Shown: positions 1,319 to 9,994 of the stretch, one piece after another
Position numbering within the stretch: position 1 is the first letter of the stretch
How the letters are laid out: each line of letters begins with the position of its first letter
Source of the DNA: Desulfoluna sp.
GTDB lineage: Bacteria > Desulfobacterota > Desulfobacteria > Desulfobacterales > Desulfolunaceae
Length of the DNA: 64,000 bases
Assembly (NCBI RefSeq): GCF_030145185.1
Contig: NZ_JAQYWB010000019.1
Span: 1 to 64,000 of the forward strand
Reading direction: 5' to 3'
Position numbers and translations under genes: made by a program
Notes under the pieces: model-generated
What the model was told of the DNA's origin: nothing
Database searches by the model: none
What the model saw: the letters and a program-made list of their open reading frames with translations, nothing else

Positions 1319-1774
1319 TCAGCTTCGTCCGCGGCGCCCCATGGCCTGGCACTCGGCCAGATAATTCTGCACCCGAACAAAGGGTGCATAACGAGCGTCC
1401 TCTTCTTTAATATGCGAGGGGAGCCACTCCTTGACGTAACCCACAGCATCGTCAGTCACTTTTCCGGGATCTTCCGAGAAAAGGCGGCGGAAACCCATCA
1501 TTTTCTTGATAAATTTTTTGTGTTCCCGTCTGTGTTGATTCAGTTCGGGGTACTGCTTGCCCACCAGAAGTTTTTCCTCTTCGTTGAAATGCATTCTGGC
1601 AAATTCCATCATATCGGCAAGTACTTCACCAATGGCTTCAAAATCTTCTTCTTTCTTGCGTTTAACGGCATTAAGCTCAACGAGCTTCGCCGCAATCTCC
1701 ATAAGACGCTGATTGCGTTCGTCCATCAACGAAATCTGTATTTTGCAGGAATCATCCCAAGCAAGTCCTTCCAT
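1319..1774 (-). CDS. Bacteriohemerythrin with an altered first metal ligand
   Basis: This 151-residue protein has the length and motif order of bacteriohemerythrins, which are non-haem di-iron O2-binding proteins. The HFNEEE segment carries a His and a Glu ligand, QHRREH two His, and HIKEED the C-terminal His and Asp. The first conserved ligand, normally His in a DEQH motif, is Asn at position 21 (MDERNQRL). Loss of one of the five His would change or weaken the di-iron site, so canonical O2 binding is uncertain. AAGGAG lies about 12 bases before the ATG. The gene stands alone, convergent with the acidic protein. A palindrome at 1858-1872 lies upstream and could control it. Confidence 0.88.
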   Translation of the reverse strand: MEGLAWDDSCKIQISLMDERNQRLMEIAAKLVELNAVKRKKEEDFEAIGEVLADMMEFARMHFNEEEKLLVGKQYPELNQHRREHKKFIKKMMGFRRLFSEDPGKVTDDAVGYVKEWLPSHIKEEDARYAPFVRVQNYLAECQAMGRRGRS

Positions 1775-1899: not shown

Positions 1900-2820
1900 T
1901 TACTGTTTTGAATATATAGCATCGATATCATGGGGGGGACAACTCATTTTCACAGGACCCATTCGAAGGGTCTCCCGGTACGCATCGCCACCCTTGGCGA
2001 TCACCTCTTCCAGAAAAGAAATCTGCCCTCGAATCTGGTCGACATACACGTTCCGATCCATGCCCCGGTACACCCTGAAATGTGTCTGGAAATGGTCCAG
2101 CACACTCTTCCCCGTCTCATCCACCATCTCAGCAAGAATGCGACGACAAAAGGCCGGAGAATTTTCCAGAAGCGTTTTTTCCCCTATAAAGGCTTGTTTT
2201 TCGGCAGCATGAAGTTCCTCACCAAGGAGCAGGATCTTCTCCCCATAACGCATGTCCGCCATCTGCCCCGCCAGATCCGCCGCCTTCAAGAGCGCACCCA
2301 GATATCGCTGTTCCTGATTCTCAAAGACGACGAGAAAGGAGTCGGCCGAAAGTTCGGTACAGGCCAATAGAGAGGCGACAAAACCACAGGCATCCTCACC
2401 CCAGCCCCGCTCCCGCAGGTAGGTTCCCAGCATCACCATGCCCCGTGCCACATGCTCTGTCGTGAGCTCAGCGCCTCTGGTTTCGGGATCTTCTGTGCGC
2501 CGAATCAACCCTGCATCATGAAAAAGTGCCGCCACGATAGAGAGAAGCCCCTCTCGTTCCGACACCGGATATCCGTCCAGAACGGCCCCATGAAGAAGCC
2601 GGGCCATCGCCAGGGTCACCGTGATCACATGGGTGAGATTATGATAGGGCGTGTCACAGGCGTGATAACCTGGCCACTGGCCATTATAAAGACGCGCCAC
2701 GTCCCCCCAGGCCTCATCCAGAAGAGACACATCTCCATCGGGCCAGATCAGACAAAAAAGAGTGCGTACCTCGTCACGCACCTCATCATGCGAGCCCATG
2801 GTGACCAAATCCAATATCAT
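1900..2820 (-). CDS. HD-domain phosphohydrolase, cyclic nucleotide PDE-like
   Basis: This 306-residue soluble protein keeps a complete HD-type metal site: YHNLTHV at residues 59-65, HDAG at 101-104, a further His at 123 and Asp in KAADLAG (about 182). The YHNxxH signature is the one seen in class I 3',5'-cyclic nucleotide phosphodiesterases, while the HD spacing fits the wider HD superfamily. It is the last gene of a four-gene operon whose first gene is a class III cyclase. Its start overlaps the stop of the TPR lipoprotein gene (ATGA), implying translational coupling. A role in degrading the cyclase product is an inference from motif and context; other nucleotide substrates are possible. Confidence 0.75.
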   Translation of the reverse strand: MILDLVTMGSHDEVRDEVRTLFCLIWPDGDVSLLDEAWGDVARLYNGQWPGYHACDTPYHNLTHVITVTLAMARLLHGAVLDGYPVSEREGLLSIVAALFHDAGLIRRTEDPETRGAELTTEHVARGMVMLGTYLRERGWGEDACGFVASLLACTELSADSFLVVFENQEQRYLGALLKAADLAGQMADMRYGEKILLLGEELHAAEKQAFIGEKTLLENSPAFCRRILAEMVDETGKSVLDHFQTHFRVYRGMDRNVYVDQIRGQISFLEEVIAKGGDAYRETLRMGPVKMSCPPHDIDAIYSKQ

Positions 2821-3995
2821 GGTTTCTTTCCCCTTTTTTCCAACTGAATGCCTTTCACCTTTTCAAGCAAATATCCGGCATTGGCGACACCCTCTCCGGC
2901 TTTCACAAAGTCAGGGTTCAGTTCCAGACTCTTTTTCCACTCGGCAATGGCACCCACGAGATTTTCCTCCAGAAAGAGTCGGACCCCGATTCGATAATGG
3001 GCCTCTGCCTTTTGGTTCATTCGCTTCGTAAGTCGTCGTTCCAACGCATCGCGCCCGGAAAAACCCGGGTCGATGGTGTTCAGGACCTTCCGTGACGCCA
3101 CCAGCGCCCCCTGCTGCTCAAGAAGGGTGGCCTCCTTCAACAAAGCGGCATTCTTGGATACCTGAGCTGCCTCCCGGCGGTTCTTCTGGATGGAGAGAAT
3201 CGCTTCAATCTGCGGTTTCTCATTTCTAAAATAAACGTCCACCCGGCGGTACATGACCAGGGCTTCCGGGTAACGCCCGGCCTCAAACAGCTCTCTGGCC
3301 ATATTGTGGGTGGCCGTGTTCTTTAAATACAAGGCCTCCTGATCATCCGGGGCATAACTGAGGATCTCCTCGGAGACGGTCAGCAAGGCATCCCAGGTTT
3401 CTGATTTATACTGCCTGCGCGCCTCGAAAATAGCCCTTCTGTAACTGAACTGTGCGGCCACAAGAGAGGCCTCCACCCTGGGCAGCCAGAGCACCTCTCC
3501 CGCCACTGTGCCCGGGCCATGAAGAACCTCAACCAGAGAGGCCAGCTGCACATTTTTGTAAACCCGACCGGCGATGGTGACCGTAGATTCTCCACCCTGC
3601 ACCGTGTAGGGCAGCACCAGCCGTCGAGAGAGGCTCTCCCGAAGTCGCTGCCGGGCCATGGCGTGGGCAGGAGCCATGCGTAACACCTTGAGGAGATGCA
3701 CTTTTTGCTGATCCATCTCGCCTTGGGCCAAGGCCTGGTCCGCAGCCGTGAGTGCCCCTTGAATCGTCGCCCTTCGAAGGGACTGAAGGGTCGTCCTTTT
3801 TTCTGCCGCCACCGCCGAAGCGGCCTCCCAATACCGAAGGGCCTCTGTAAAATCACCGCGATCTTCCAATGCCAGCGCCCGCGTCTGCAAGGCATCGGGG
3901 AAGGGCACCGACGCCCGAGGTAAGGTCAGGGACTGACAGGCCCCCATAAAAAAAATGGCGCACAGAACCCACAGATATCGTCCAAGCCTCACCAT
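2817..3995 (-). CDS. TPR lipoprotein with LysM-like segment
   Basis: This 392-residue exported protein has a short signal peptide ending in a lipobox (MGAC, lipidated Cys20). Tetratricopeptide-like helices occupy about residues 38-125 and 190-385, with a clear TPR near the end (YRIGVRLFLEENLVGAIAEW). A beta-rich stretch at about 130-175 beginning YTVQGGES resembles a LysM domain. The family is unnamed; such proteins usually act as scaffolds at the inner face of the outer membrane or in the periplasm. The gene overlaps both neighbours by a few bases, so it is firmly part of the cyclase operon. Confidence 0.75.
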   Translation of the reverse strand: MVRLGRYLWVLCAIFFMGACQSLTLPRASVPFPDALQTRALALEDRGDFTEALRYWEAASAVAAEKRTTLQSLRRATIQGALTAADQALAQGEMDQQKVHLLKVLRMAPAHAMARQRLRESLSRRLVLPYTVQGGESTVTIAGRVYKNVQLASLVEVLHGPGTVAGEVLWLPRVEASLVAAQFSYRRAIFEARRQYKSETWDALLTVSEEILSYAPDDQEALYLKNTATHNMARELFEAGRYPEALVMYRRVDVYFRNEKPQIEAILSIQKNRREAAQVSKNAALLKEATLLEQQGALVASRKVLNTIDPGFSGRDALERRLTKRMNQKAEAHYRIGVRLFLEENLVGAIAEWKKSLELNPDFVKAGEGVANAGYLLEKVKGIQLEKRGKKP

Positions 3996-4966
3996 GACAA
4001 ATCGGCCCTCCGAAACGTATCCAGGTACCGGCTGAGGGGCACCTCCGCACCGCGACGCCCCACATCCATGCGCACCACACTCAAAGGGTCACAAAAAAAA
4101 GGGTTGCCTCCGGTCCCCTGTATGAAGATCCACTGGATCCCCAGAGAGACCATCACCGAGGCCATGACGCTGTTGCCCTGATTGTCCGGATAAGCAGCAA
4201 ATCTTACGGGCATCTTTGCCTGTTGAACCAACAGCGCATGGGAGGTAGAGATCACGTCCTTAACCCGCCGGGCATACCCCACCAGGCTCTCTTCCCCGAC
4301 AGGGGCAGAGAGCCCCGTCTCTGTCGGGGGGAGCAGCGCGGGCTCTATCCCCTCTCCGGATAGACGTCGCACCTCTTCCCAGGTCAACGCCCCCTCTTCG
4401 CCCACCCCAGCCGGATCCACAAAGAGAAGCCCGGTCAGGCCTGGCGTGGAGAGCGAGGACACCAGTGCCCTGAACGCTTCGGCTCGTGACACTTCAAAGG
4501 CAAGCAACACAGACTGTTCAGGGATGGATCGTTCCATACGGATAAAGGCCAGAAAATCGCTGGGTGAGAGCAGGGTACAACCGGAGGCTTCCAGCTGAAG
4601 AAGATCGGCCTGAACACGGGCGAGTGAAGGGCCTGTCCCCGCCTCAGGTCCCCATCGGTAGGAAAGAACCGGAACCACAGGGTACCCATCGGGACGAATC
4701 CCCAACTCATAGACGGGCTTGCTCGGAACAAGCAGCGGGGTATTTCCCGGCGTCAAGGCCCGGGGATTGAGAGATTCTATGGTCCTCAATCCAGCCGCAC
4801 CGCCCCCGAAGGACTCGGCCACCGATTCTAAGGTCTCCCCTGGGGCCGGCTGAACCACCTCATACTCCCCCGCCTGACGGTGCCAAGGGCTTCCCACACA
4901 GGCGACCCCGAAAAAAAACACCCCGAGCAAAAAAAGCCAATATGGCGTTATGGCTTTACTTTCCAT
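3989..4966 (-). CDS. LysM lipoprotein with degenerate polysaccharide deacetylase-like domain
   Basis: This 325-residue lipoprotein has the lipobox FGVAC (Cys23). A LysM-like peptidoglycan-binding segment covers residues 35-82, and from about residue 97 to the end there is a fold resembling NodB/PgaB polysaccharide deacetylases (VPVLSYRWG in place of the usual PVLxYHxV). The catalytic Asp pair of the FDDG motif is absent (AFEVSR), so it is probably an enzymatically dead glycan-binding or sensor protein. The ATG at 4966 is preferred over the GTG at 4972 because of spacing from GGGGA. It overlaps the cyclase stop codon and the TPR gene start. Confidence 0.7.
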   Translation of the reverse strand: MESKAITPYWLFLLGVFFFGVACVGSPWHRQAGEYEVVQPAPGETLESVAESFGGGAAGLRTIESLNPRALTPGNTPLLVPSKPVYELGIRPDGYPVVPVLSYRWGPEAGTGPSLARVQADLLQLEASGCTLLSPSDFLAFIRMERSIPEQSVLLAFEVSRAEAFRALVSSLSTPGLTGLLFVDPAGVGEEGALTWEEVRRLSGEGIEPALLPPTETGLSAPVGEESLVGYARRVKDVISTSHALLVQQAKMPVRFAAYPDNQGNSVMASVMVSLGIQWIFIQGTGGNPFFCDPLSVVRMDVGRRGAEVPLSRYLDTFRRADLSW

Positions 4967-6668
4967 AACCACGAATCCCCGTGACGCGATAGACCTCCAC
5001 CAACCCGGAGCGCCCTTTCACCTTTTGTGGAACCAGGGACTCCACCTCCAGGATGTCTCGATGGCGCTCCATGACGATGCTCCCCACAACAATCTCACCG
5101 CCCTGGGCCAGCGTGTTGATATAAGCGGCCACGTTGACCGTATCCCCGATGACGGTGTACTCCATTTTCGCCTGAGATCCGATACTGCCCGCCACCACGA
5201 CCCCACTCTTAATGCTGATGCCCACACGGGAAAGAAGGGGATTCCGGCCGGATTCAGCGGCCTGCCGAAAGGCCTTCTGCATCTCGACGGCAGCCCGGAG
5301 ACACCGCTCCGAATGATTCTCATAGTTAACGGGCACACCAAACACCGCCAAGACCGCGTCCCCGATAAATTTATCCACGTACCCACCGTGTTTAAGGATA
5401 ATGGTGGTGGCAATTTCAAAATACTGGTTAAGCTCCTCCACCAGCGTTTCCGGAGCCCGCGTCTCTGTGTAGGCGGTAAACCCCCGAATATCGGCAAAAA
5501 GAACCGTGGCCTGATTTTTTCGCCCCTTAAGCCAGGTGGTCTCTGGATTCTGCATGATCAGTTCCAGCACGTCGGAGCCCACATACTTGCCGAAGGACTC
5601 CCGCATCATGGACTGCTTAAAGAGCTCTTTGCCCATGCGGTTAAAGGCGGTGGCCAGACGCCCCAGCTCATCATTTCGACGGCTGTCCACCCGGTGACTG
5701 TAGTTGCCCTTGGCAAACTCCTGGGTCGCCACCACAAGGCTTGAAATCGGCTTGGAAAAACGGCGACCGAAAAGCACCGCCACCACCAGTCCGATCAGCC
5801 CGATGATCATCGTGCTGATCGCCAGAAACGCCCGCTCCTCTAAAAAAAGCTGATCGATAAAGTCAATGGAGAGCCCCACATGCACCTCGCCGAGCCGCTT
5901 CTCTTTAAAGATGATGGGCACGCTCATGTTCAAAACCGGCCCCACCCCACCGCCGTCGTGGGTAAAGTAGGTCACCTCACCCCGGGACTCCACCTCCCCT
6001 GTGGGGGGATAACGCACCATGGTTTTGCCGATTTGAGAGGCATCTGTGTGGGCCTTGATGACCTCCTTGTTGTCCACAATCAGGGCATACAAATGGCCAT
6101 CGACGCCTTCGGCGTTTTTAATCAAAGCATTCAGGGAGAGGATGTTGTCTTCAAGGAGGAGGGTCTTCGCGTTGCTGCCGAAGTAACCGAGGCTCACCAT
6201 GCCGAGTTTGACGGCATGATTGTAAAGTTTCTCTTTCTGGCGTTCCAGAATAACATAGCTTAAAAGACCGACGGTCAGAAGCATCACCACCGTCATGGTC
6301 ACGGAGAGCTGTAGCCAGATGGGCACACGGGGAGCAGGGACCTCCTCGGTCAGGGAGTCACCAATTCGGCGAATCAATCCCCGGATGTTGTCAGACAACG
6401 AGGTGACATGAATGCGATAATGCTCATTGACGGCCTGAACAATCTGCGCCTCCGTGGCGTACTTGAGCTCCACCACCACCTTTCCCAACGGAACCGCCAC
6501 GCCCCTTTGAAACAGCTTGTCTCTCTGCACATCCAGAGCTGTCTCCAGCTCTTTACGCGTAATCACGTTTCGGGCAATCAACACTTCGCCAATGATCATA
6601 TCATCGCGATTACGCCTGAAAAAAAAACCGCTGACCAAATGACTCCATGAGCGGAGGGTTTTCAACAT
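4956..6668 (-). CDS. Membrane class III adenylate cyclase with MshEN-like N-terminus and HAMP
   Basis: This 570-residue protein opens with an MshEN/GspE-N-like module (residues 24-100, IIGEVLIARNVITRKELETA). It then has TM1 (117-141), an extracytoplasmic Cache-like sensor, TM2 (281-300), HAMP (300-352) and a class III cyclase domain (385-565). FADIRGFT (Asp393) and FIGDAV (Asp437) supply the metal ligands, and Lys433 fits ATP specificity. The transition-state Arg of the NxxxR motif is Tyr516 (NVAAY), which would lower activity if the family rule holds. The start at 6668 has GGAG eight bases upstream. First gene of the operon with two envelope lipoproteins and an HD hydrolase. Confidence 0.88.
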   Translation of the reverse strand: MLKTLRSWSHLVSGFFFRRNRDDMIIGEVLIARNVITRKELETALDVQRDKLFQRGVAVPLGKVVVELKYATEAQIVQAVNEHYRIHVTSLSDNIRGLIRRIGDSLTEEVPAPRVPIWLQLSVTMTVVMLLTVGLLSYVILERQKEKLYNHAVKLGMVSLGYFGSNAKTLLLEDNILSLNALIKNAEGVDGHLYALIVDNKEVIKAHTDASQIGKTMVRYPPTGEVESRGEVTYFTHDGGGVGPVLNMSVPIIFKEKRLGEVHVGLSIDFIDQLFLEERAFLAISTMIIGLIGLVVAVLFGRRFSKPISSLVVATQEFAKGNYSHRVDSRRNDELGRLATAFNRMGKELFKQSMMRESFGKYVGSDVLELIMQNPETTWLKGRKNQATVLFADIRGFTAYTETRAPETLVEELNQYFEIATTIILKHGGYVDKFIGDAVLAVFGVPVNYENHSERCLRAAVEMQKAFRQAAESGRNPLLSRVGISIKSGVVVAGSIGSQAKMEYTVIGDTVNVAAYINTLAQGGEIVVGSIVMERHRDILEVESLVPQKVKGRSGLVEVYRVTGIRGYGK

Positions 6669-6883
6669 AGGGTGGGCTCCATCGTCCATCTTTCGTTCGA
6701 TATCAATTCGAAAATCATCGCTTACATTTACGAGGCCTTCACTGAATTATCAATAGAATTGTAGTACGATGATTCGTTGGGATGTCATGGTTAACCGGTC
6801 CGGACGCCTCCGGAAGTCATCCGGAAGAGAAAAGAAAGGCGTGTCTCAAGCAGAAACGCGCCGAAGAGACGCTATCTATAATA

Positions 6884-8368
6884 TCACGGTTTCCCCACGC
6901 CGGAAAGAGCAGGCGAAACCTGCCTTGCCTCCAGCATGGTCAGTAACCGGCCATGAATGCCTTCAAACCCGCCGTTGGACATCACCATCAAAAGATCACC
7001 GGCACGTGCCTCGGACTGAAAATAATTCACAATCGCCCCGGCATCAGGAAAGAGGTGCGCCTCTTTACCCGAGCACTTCAGGGCCTCCACCAGGGCCTCC
7101 GAGGAGAACCGTTGCCCTTCGGGCACCTTTTCCGGGTGGGGGGGCATGCGCACACAAATCAGATCCGCAGCCTCAAACGCATGGGTATAGGCCTCCTGAA
7201 AAACATCGCGCATGCTCGAATTGGTGCGGGGCTCAAAAATGGCCACCAGCCGGTGCCCCTTGTAAAAGGAGCGAACCGCTGACAGGGTACTGGCCACCGC
7301 CGTGGGATGATGGGCAAAATCATCCATCACCAGAACGCCTCCCACCTGCCCCCGGATCTCCTGCCGGCGCCGAATACCCTTAAAGGTCGCGAGGGCCTCG
7401 GCCACCCGCCCACGATCCAGCCCCAGACGATGGCAGGCCGCAATGACGGAGACGGCATTTTCCACATTGTGCCCGCCGGGCATGGGCAGGGTGTACTCCC
7501 CATAGAGACGGCCCTGATAAAAAAGGCGAAACCTCGTCTCCGGAGCTGTGTCCTTGATCACCTCCGGACGCCAGACAGGCGCTCCGCGAAAACCATAGGT
7601 AAACACATCACAGGGGGCCTGGGCCACAACACGGGCCACGTTCTCCCCGGGCCCGGCCATCACCGCCGCCTCCGGTCGATGCTTTTTCATAAAGGCTGTA
7701 AACGCGGAAACCACGTGAGAAAGATCCCGATAAATATCGGCGTGATCGAACTCTACACTGGTTAAAATCGTCACCTCAGGATCATAATGCAAAAACTTGG
7801 GACCCTTGTCGAAAAAGGCGGTGTCGTACTCGTCACCCTCCACCACCAGGAAATCCCCGGCCCCCACCTTGCAGTTACTTGAAAAATTCTGCAGCACCCC
7901 GCCAATCATAAAGCTGGGGTCGAGCCCTGCATACTCGAGCACCCAGGCCATCATGGACGAGGTGGTGGTCTTGCCGTGGGTCCCGGCCACCACCACCGTG
8001 CGCTTGCCCCGGCCAAAAAAACCCTCCACCGCCTGGGGAAACGAGCAATAAGGGAGCTTGCGCTCCCCCAGCGCCAACGCCTCGGGGTTCTCCTTACGAA
8101 TGGCGTTGCCCACCACCACCAGGTCCGCATCTCCGATATGTTCGGGCTTAAATCCCTCCAATAGGGTGATCCCGCTTTCGGAAAGCAGGTCACTCATGGG
8201 GGGATAAATCCCGGCATCGGAGCCGGTCACCTCCAGACCAATCTTTTTAAGCATCAGGGCCAACGCCCCCATGCCCGTCCCACAGACGGCAATGAGATGC
8301 ACCCGACGCACCCCTTCGGGGATAACATTCAACAACGGGTCAAGATGATGGGGTGGTGTCTGCTGCAT
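6884..8368 (-). CDS. mpl: UDP-MurNAc : L-Ala-gamma-D-Glu-meso-DAP ligase
   Basis: This 494-residue Mur ligase-family enzyme matches Mpl, which recycles the murein tripeptide by joining it to UDP-N-acetylmuramate in the cytosol. It has the N-terminal Rossmann motif (CGTGMGALA, residues 29-37), the ATP loop GTHGKTTT (129-136), VEGDEYDTAFFDK and DDFAHHPTA typical of Mpl/MurC. The ATG at 8368 follows AAGGA; an upstream in-frame GTG lacks a site. Together with nagZ, mltG and the LysM proteins elsewhere in the window it points to active murein recycling in a Gram-negative cell. It ends about 215 bp from the cyclase start, so it is probably transcribed separately. Confidence 0.95.
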   Translation of the reverse strand: MQQTPPHHLDPLLNVIPEGVRRVHLIAVCGTGMGALALMLKKIGLEVTGSDAGIYPPMSDLLSESGITLLEGFKPEHIGDADLVVVGNAIRKENPEALALGERKLPYCSFPQAVEGFFGRGKRTVVVAGTHGKTTTSSMMAWVLEYAGLDPSFMIGGVLQNFSSNCKVGAGDFLVVEGDEYDTAFFDKGPKFLHYDPEVTILTSVEFDHADIYRDLSHVVSAFTAFMKKHRPEAAVMAGPGENVARVVAQAPCDVFTYGFRGAPVWRPEVIKDTAPETRFRLFYQGRLYGEYTLPMPGGHNVENAVSVIAACHRLGLDRGRVAEALATFKGIRRRQEIRGQVGGVLVMDDFAHHPTAVASTLSAVRSFYKGHRLVAIFEPRTNSSMRDVFQEAYTHAFEAADLICVRMPPHPEKVPEGQRFSSEALVEALKCSGKEAHLFPDAGAIVNYFQSEARAGDLLMVMSNGGFEGIHGRLLTMLEARQVSPALSGVGKP

Positions 8369-8447
8369 GTGCTTCCTTTTTTTCAGGGCTACCACAGAGG
8401 CAAAGTAAAGAGATGCCTTCTATGGTTAAAGTACGGGGCAAAAACGT

Positions 8448-8707: not shown

Positions 8708-9994
8708 TTAATCGGCCAATTCGGCCAGTACCTTGGTGGCGGCGGCGATGGTGAAGTCGATGTCTTCATCCGTATGGGCGGCAGAGACAAAGGCCGCTTC
8801 AAACTGGGAGGGAGCGAGATAAACGCCCTCTTCGAGCATGCGATTGTAATAAGCGCTGAAAAGTTCCAGATTGGAGGTTTTGGCGTCCTCAAAGTTGGCC
8901 ACACAAACCCCGGTGAAATAGAGCCCGAACATGGAGCCTGCGGTATCGGCGGTACAAGGGATGCCCGCTTTTTCGGCAGCCCCGACAAGGCCACTCACCA
9001 GGCGGGTGGTTTTTTCAGCGAGGGCTTCGTAAAAACCCGGCTCTCGGATCGCTTTCAGGGTCTCGATACCCGCGGCCATGGCCAGGGGGTTGCCGGAAAG
9101 AGTGCCGGCCTGATACACTGGACCGTTGGGAGAGATATGGGCCATAATATCGGCCCGCCCGCCGTAGGCACCCACGGGGAGCCCTCCGCCGATGATCTTG
9201 CCCATGGTGGTCAGATCCGGGGTGATGCCGTAAAGAGACTGCGCGCCACCCAGAGCCACACGAAATCCTGTCATGACCTCATCGACAATCAGAAGCGCCC
9301 CGTGCTTTTCGGTCTCTTCCCGGAGCACCTTGAGAAAATCGTTCTGGGGTTTGATAAAGCCCATGTTGCCGGCAATGCCCTCCACGATAATACAAGCCAC
9401 CTGGTCCCCCATGGCCGTCATCACCTCACGCACCTTGTCGATATCGTTATAAGGGATGGAGAGGGTGTGTTTGGTGGTGTCCTCGGGCACGCCGGGGCTG
9501 CCGGCAATATTATAGGTGGCCACACCGGATCCGGCCGCCACGAGAAAGGGGTCGGCATGCCCGTGATAGCAACCGTCAAACTTAATCACCACATCCCGGC
9601 CCGTAAAGCCCCGAGCAAGACGAATGGCGCTCATGGTGGCCTCGGTGCCGGAGTTCACCATCCGCACCACATCCACTGATTTCACGGTATCGATCACCAG
9701 CTCTGCCAGATCGATCTCAAGTTCCGTGGGGGCGCCAAAGCTGGTCCCTTTTTCAATGGCGTCCCTTAAAACGGCGTTCACGCGCTCTGGGGCGTGGCCC
9801 AGAATCATGGGGCCCCAGGAGCCTACATAATCAAGATATCCATTGCCGTCAGCGTCATAGACCCTGGCACCCTTGGCACGTTCTATAAAAAGGGGATCAC
9901 GCCCCACAGACTTGCAAGCCCTCACCGGACTGTTCACACCACCGGGAATCACCCTCTGGGCCCGCTCAAAAAGCGCTTTTGATTTTGTATCCAT
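8708..9994 (-). CDS. hemL: Glutamate-1-semialdehyde 2,1-aminomutase
   Basis: This 428-residue PLP enzyme converts glutamate-1-semialdehyde to 5-aminolevulinate, the second step of C5-pathway tetrapyrrole synthesis. It opens [20 protein letters not shown] as HemL proteins do. It carries NSGTEAT (residues 114-120), DEVMTGFR (238-245) and the PLP lysine at 266 in TMGKIIGGG, and the full length matches the family. Tetrapyrroles feed haem, sirohaem and the corrinoid needed by the methyltransferase at 57 kb. No other hem gene is adjacent. Confidence 0.97.

Follow-up and report, generated by a model that had tools for sequence, protein, structure and literature searches.

A class III cyclase of Desulfoluna encoded with two putative envelope lipoproteins that may form an exchangeable sensor pair

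The window analyzed here, a stretch of 64,000 nucleotides from the genome of a Desulfoluna sp., a marine sulfate reducer of the Desulfobacterales (assembly GCF_030145185.1, contig NZ_JAQYWB010000019.1, positions 1 to 64,000), carries four minus-strand open reading frames (ORFs) in series, each overlapping the next, by 17, 7 and 4 nt (window 6689-1900). They code for a membrane class III cyclase (hereafter CYC), a protein with a polysaccharide deacetylase fold (PDA), a tetratricopeptide repeat protein (TPR) and an HD hydrolase. The nearest named genomes are those of Desulfoluna limicola, spongiiphila and butyratoxydans. The four overlapping genes of the original prediction, made from the sequence alone, are real, and the CYC start that it placed at 6668 is likely the right one, since the homologues L033 and L034 begin at that internal Met (loci, genomes and families are given as L, G and f numbers). 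The genes and their parts, with lengths in amino acids (aa), are as follows.

4956..6689, minus strand: CYC, 577 aa; MshEN-like domain, transmembrane segment, sCache_3_2, transmembrane segment, HAMP and class III cyclase domain, the transmembrane segments judged by eye
6423..6593, minus strand: MshEN-like domain of CYC, aa 33-89; NF053729 32.1 bits, just below the NCBIfam cut-off of 38
5844..6146, minus strand: sCache_3_2 sensor of CYC, aa 182-282; Pfam 43.6 bits, cut-off 28.4
5622..5774, minus strand: HAMP of CYC, aa 306-356; Pfam 53 bits, cut-off 25
4989..5522, minus strand: class III cyclase domain of CYC, aa 390-567; Guanylate_cyc 94.6 bits, above the Pfam cut-off
3989..4972, minus strand: PDA, 327 aa; putative lipoprotein (N-terminal sequence judged by eye) with a LysM-like stretch and a NodB2 pseudo-deacetylase domain
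4721..4864, minus strand: LysM-like stretch of PDA, about aa 37-84, from the family consensus
4013..4690, minus strand: NodB2 domain of PDA, aa 95-320, with Asp-Asp and both His lost
2817..3995, minus strand: TPR, 392 aa; putative lipoprotein with TPRs and a LysM-like stretch
1900..2820, minus strand: HD hydrolase, 306 aa; YHNxxH ... HD ... AD

Judged by the ratio of nonsynonymous to synonymous differences (pN/pS), all four genes are under constraint, strongest in CYC, with no sign of decay. Values ranged from 0.08 to 0.58 across the set when each window gene was compared with its counterparts in 3 to 5 relatives, several pairs being near saturation at synonymous sites, and CYC was the best conserved, with 89-93% identity to three species and a pN/pS of 0.08-0.12. 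The membrane class III cyclase with a Cache sensor that had been predicted was borne out, sCache_3_2, HAMP and Guanylate_cyc all scoring above the Pfam cut-offs, while the MshEN-like stretch is a part that had gone unnamed. The catalytic domain, whose nearest solved relatives are 6fht, 2w01 and 3r5g, keeps D400 and D444 (equivalents in 96/96 aligned cyclases), K440 and D516 (Lys in 96/96, Asp in 89/96) and N519. We take the first pair to bind metal, the second to select ATP, and N519 to act in the transition state together with an Arg at the position of Tyr523; this last position is His, Tyr, Lys or Ser in 26/96 proteins. By its residues, CYC probably makes cyclic AMP (cAMP), and possible readers of it exist, the genome having 11 cNMP_binding matches in 10 ORFs, along with one further class III cyclase match besides CYC. 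The sensor-HAMP-catalytic layout is that of class III adenylate cyclase receptors with HAMP, such as the CyaB-type and Rv1625c-like ones, from which CYC differs by its MshEN-like N terminus and the two conserved lipoproteins of its operon. According to the accessible part of PMC5013675, MshEN receptors of cyclic di-GMP have two RLG...G...L...L..Q motifs joined by a 5-residue linker. The window protein has IIG with Asn for Gly in one, PLG with Lys for Gly and His for Gln in the other, and a linker of 11, so control of CYC by cyclic di-GMP through this domain is unlikely.

The window PDA has no Pfam match of its own; among 21 aligned members of its family, Polysacc_deac_1 was matched by 16 and LysM by 2 (E<=0.01). 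Its AlphaFold model (predicted local distance difference test, pLDDT, 89.5) matched PgaB, IcaB, BpsB and Bc0361-type deacetylases with Z of 20.5-23.6, the rest among the matches listed having Z <=11.3. The best fold match was PgaB (Z 23.6, 222 residues, root mean square deviation 2.4), and the barrel is of the NodB2 type. In the part of PMC10967932 that we could consult, the NodB2 class comprises the poly-N-acetylglucosamine deacetylases together with Bc0361/Ba0330, and the catalytic residues of CE4 deacetylases are Asp-Asp in motif MT1 and two His in MT2. The window PDA has Glu-Val for the MT1 Asp-Asp and no MT2 His; by these residues it is a deacetylase fold with the active site lost. It thus shares the fold (aa 95-320) with the NodB2-type CE4 de-N-acetylases (PgaB, IcaB, BpsB, Bc0361) and differs from them by the lost Asp-Asp/His-His, the preceding LysM-like stretch and the linkage to signaling genes. 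The CE4 protein BA3943 also has a deacetylase fold and is a pseudoenzyme according to its entry titles, but the match of PDA to it is much weaker (Z about 10). The TPR gene matched TPR_2 (E 7.8e-13, above the Pfam cut-off). Both lipoproteins had been described as LysM-like; LysM was matched in the 2/21 PDA members and in 6/20 TPR relatives (E<=0.01), and neither of the window copies had a Pfam LysM match. They may face murein, as had been supposed, but the known members of the NodB2 class, in the same part of PMC10967932, include the deacetylases of another glycan, poly-N-acetylglucosamine.

For an unbiased count, we used 79 named loci retrieved by a search with nothing but the sensor part of the cyclase, and thus not chosen for PDA. 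PDA follows in 59 of them, TPR in 62 and both in 56, while the 3 loci with HD all belong to Desulfoluna. Among the 20 loci lacking PDA, 11 end at a contig edge <=1.5 kb away. The full CYC-PDA-TPR triad in order was found for 71 of 95 distinct cyclases, a count that leaves out the ORF join of L107 described below, and among the first 58 relatives this order occurs in nine families (f1, f19, f21, f29, f34, f38, f40, f43 and f46). PDA was also found outside the Desulfobacterales in a search of 395 genomes of the phylum, and 16 of the 20 loci fetched outside the order have the triad (at least four repeat proteins of named loci). Some genomes join these proteins in one ORF. In Desulfofustis glycolicus DSM 9705 (L107:8995-11559), a single 854-aa ORF connects sCache-HAMP-cyclase to the TPR lipoprotein, although the lipobox-like stretch at the joint makes a sequencing error possible; PDA and TPR form one ORF in L092 (sequence read) and, judged only by their length, in L157 and L205. 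Such joins support a working link between these proteins. Together with the conservation, they favor the envelope-linked cyclase unit that had been proposed. Synteny of all four genes in related genomes stood up in part, CYC-PDA-TPR being conserved far beyond the genus and HD having been seen in the operon in Desulfoluna only.

The lipoprotein pair also appears beside other signaling enzymes. The comparison covered 39 PDA loci that lack the CYC receptor, with no TPR in view in a few of them. The fetched stretch contains a Ser/Thr kinase in 29, a HAMP-SpoIIE phosphatase receptor in 3 and type VI secretion genes in 2, and the remaining 5 show nothing of the kind. The kinase-type loci mostly include PP2C and FHA proteins, and the kinase had an sCache part in both examples scanned (L046 and L213). 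An FHA-cyclase lies nearby in 5/39, which are therefore not free of cyclases, and the kinase query matched in 9/94 cyclase loci, so the two contexts are distinct and not exclusive. At L046:756-5137, an FHA-cyclase fusion is found beside PP2C and the sCache kinase, divergent from PDA-TPR. In L054:2327-11358 and L182:857-9298, PDA-TPR with intact NodB residues lies inside type VI secretion clusters (TssF, ClpV-like, FHA). The threonine phosphorylation pathway of type VI secretion, PpkA-PppA-Fha with Tag lipoproteins, likewise combines kinase, PP2C and FHA proteins; however, with the queries used, type VI structural genes were present in only 2/39 of the non-CYC loci, and the lipoproteins here are of NodB2 and TPR-LysM types. 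The recurrence of the same pair beside different signaling enzymes makes it look like an undescribed, reusable envelope-sensing part. The reading we prefer is that PDA-TPR forms an exchangeable sensor pair in the periplasm, which in cyclase operons is often a pseudo-enzyme. This pair, found with several receptor classes, is the best-supported part of our analysis and goes beyond the original prediction.

The deacetylase residues differ between these contexts. We scored three residues, the second MT1 Asp and the two MT2 His (the NodB set), leaving out PDA proteins of >600 aa (L092, L157 and L205) and nine rows without context (L042, L048, L146, L161, L168, L192, L170, L179 and L222; six intact, three not), and counting loci outside the order as cyclase linked if a cyclase match was found anywhere in the stretch and not only adjoining. 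The set was intact in 33/94 cyclase-linked copies and lost in 61/94; four of the 142 rows duplicate other rows, and without them the intact share was 31/90. Within the order alone, it was intact in 20/79 cyclase-linked copies. All 39 PDA proteins without CYC kept it, or 39/41 with the set-aside L042 and L161 included. The window PDA has lost the NodB set and the first MT1 Asp too, and in L146 a degenerate PDA lies beside a split cyclase.

We give about an even chance to the reading that the operon codes for a transmembrane receptor-cyclase with two envelope partner lipoproteins, PDA-TPR being an exchangeable pair. A glycan or cell wall ligand would be bound by PDA, in which a LysM-like stretch precedes a NodB2 fold devoid of catalytic residues, and TPR would link PDA to the sCache domain as a scaffold. 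HAMP would relay the state of the assembly to the cyclase dimer, and the cAMP made there would be read by CRP-type proteins. In Desulfoluna, the HD hydrolase would have been added, most likely removing the messenger or a product. The pair itself would be the exchangeable part, standing elsewhere beside Ser/Thr kinases or SpoIIE-phosphatase receptors.

Several observations weigh against this reading. No separate PDA or TPR gene was found in 14/79 cyclase loci; nine of these are at a contig edge and the L107 join is another, but in L109, L121, L124 and L130 there is room and neither lipoprotein gene, and in G004 CYC is directly followed by HD, with no PDA and no TPR. CYC can, therefore, do without them. 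Second, the transition-state Arg, present in 70/96 aligned cyclases, is replaced by Tyr523 in the window CYC and by Tyr in three other Desulfoluna copies and G003, with His in G004; this leaves the Asn-Arg pair of class III adenylate cyclases incomplete, next to a complete metal Asp pair and ATP-selecting Lys/Asp, and the activity of the window CYC may be low or absent. Third, L042 and L161 are degenerate with no cyclase in view and so count against the pattern of NodB loss. A quick PDA tree with long branches gave 7 changes of NodB state and 6 of context, with the loss clustered, and only 3 well-supported independent pairs, on which the sign test was not significant. With so few independent events, the loss of the NodB set appears as a trend inside the cyclase branch and not as a proven consequence of the cyclase link.

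The original prediction had seen synthesis and degradation of a cyclic nucleotide in one self-contained unit. The four genes are together in 4/6 of the Desulfoluna genomes G000-G005 (G000, G001, G002 and G005), and in G003 the string is split across two contig ends in a consistent order. HD relatives were found in 98/389 genomes of the order (E<=1e-20), but a CYC-like cyclase was absent from the fetched stretch in all 12 HD loci read outside Desulfoluna, whose neighbors gave one weak match common to two loci; no close HD-PDA pair was seen outside the genus among the matches listed (positions compared by eye). As far as examined, HD is part of the operon in Desulfoluna only, and the four-gene set was rejected as a general unit. 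Within the genus, a loop closed by HD as a true cyclic-nucleotide phosphodiesterase (PDE) is a tentative reading, falling somewhat short of an even chance. Gene 4 has an HD fold, and the predicted YHNxxH/HD pattern is present (YHNLTH and HD); H60, H64, H101, D102 and D182, presumably the metal/acid residues of class I cyclic-nucleotide PDEs, are invariant in 18/18 members. PDEase_I was the best Pfam model for the window HD, at 21.7 bits and so below the cut-off of 24.8, and was matched by 10/18 members (E<=0.01). All 50 Foldseek matches listed were class I PDEs (best E 1.1e-3), although abundant PDE entries in the PDB crowd such a list, and the structure model was poor (4 sequences, pLDDT 59). 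With the same poor model, a second aligner gave Z of about 13 for PDE2/10, 14.5 for PPX (PPX/GppA) and 13.0 for the generic HD 2pq7, that is, a tie. The second motif of class I PDEs, HDxxHxxxxN, is absent from the HD alignment, which has HDAGLIRRTED in the window and HDAGYIQ in the consensus, and the protein falls outside the Npun_R2479 HD family (NCBIfam NF045583, 43.6 bits against a cut-off of 400). That HD acts as a cyclic-nucleotide PDE is plausible, chiefly because it is encoded alongside CYC, in G004 too.

Another explanation would make PDA and TPR an envelope polysaccharide-handling or outer membrane assembly pair that cyclase, kinase or phosphatase only control, in which case information would run from messenger to envelope and the envelope would not inform the cyclase. 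A likeness may be seen in PgaB and the TPR portion of PgaA, or in AlgK. The NodB2 fold nearest to PgaB/IcaB, the intact residues in 39/41 PDA proteins not linked to CYC and the two pairs within type VI secretion clusters fit this view, but the loss of the active site in 61/94 cyclase-operon copies and the union of TPR and cyclase in one ORF in L107 do not, and we consider it unlikely. That the Desulfoluna cyclase is weak or dead and acts as a scaffold or regulator together with the pseudo-deacetylase, HD having an unrelated substrate, is improbable. In its favor are the Tyr or His at the Arg position, the 12 HD loci outside the genus without a CYC-like cyclase and the HD fold scores tied with exopolyphosphatase and generic HD; against it, CYC is the best conserved protein of the operon, keeps the metal Asp and Lys/Asp/Asn residues and lies side by side with HD in G004 without lipoproteins.

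A bolder version of the receptor-cyclase reading, speculative and highly improbable in its entirety, would make PDA-TPR an exchangeable sensor head, built of two lipoproteins, in the envelope of the Desulfobacterota. An ancestral working NodB2 deacetylase would have fed a small product, acetate or trimmed glycan, to the neighboring sCache receptor and would thereby have made the ligand of the receptor next to it. With its activity lost in the cyclase branch, it would have turned into a direct glycan receptor, and different outputs (cAMP, protein phosphorylation and dephosphorylation, and control of secretion) would have been exchanged behind an unchanged head.

Two further features lie downstream of HD.

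1319..1774, minus strand: hemerythrin-like protein; Pfam Hemerythrin 57.4 bits
1257..1293, no strand assigned: bidirectional terminator-like hairpin with a 16-bp stem, 3' of the hemerythrin gene; consensus match only

In a consensus scan of the window, no terminator-like site was found between HD and the hemerythrin-like gene, and with the hairpin after it, this gene may be the last in the same transcript. It holds the same place in L032, L036, L037, L038 and L039, and HD appears, from the gene order, to have been inserted between TPR and the hemerythrin-like gene in Desulfoluna. The operon is followed by such a gene in the window and also in D. limicola (L032), G004, G005, G006 and G007. Upstream, on the same strand, are a Pfam Mur_ligase gene (6884-8395), presumably mpl, and a gene at 8708-9994 that we take to be hemL-like; both recur in L032, L033 and L036-L039.

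The original prediction had known of no described system with this set of genes, and among open PMC papers we likewise found no report of a cyclase with a polysaccharide deacetylase and LysM or TPR, none matching cAMP in Desulfobacterales and none matching Npun_R2479 or bacterial HD phosphodiesterase terms. The cyclic GMP pair XC_0250/XC_0249 of Xanthomonas also consists of a class III cyclase and a gene linked to it but, unlike the CYC operon, no envelope lipoproteins are mentioned in the accessible part of its description (PMC3770947). If our reading is true, a large group of environmental bacteria would gain a defined pathway, open to testing, by which glycans of the envelope or matrix act on cAMP, and one periplasmic lipoprotein pair would serve cyclases, kinases and phosphatases. 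The PDA relatives with and without deacetylase residues would then allow the change from enzyme to receptor to be tested.

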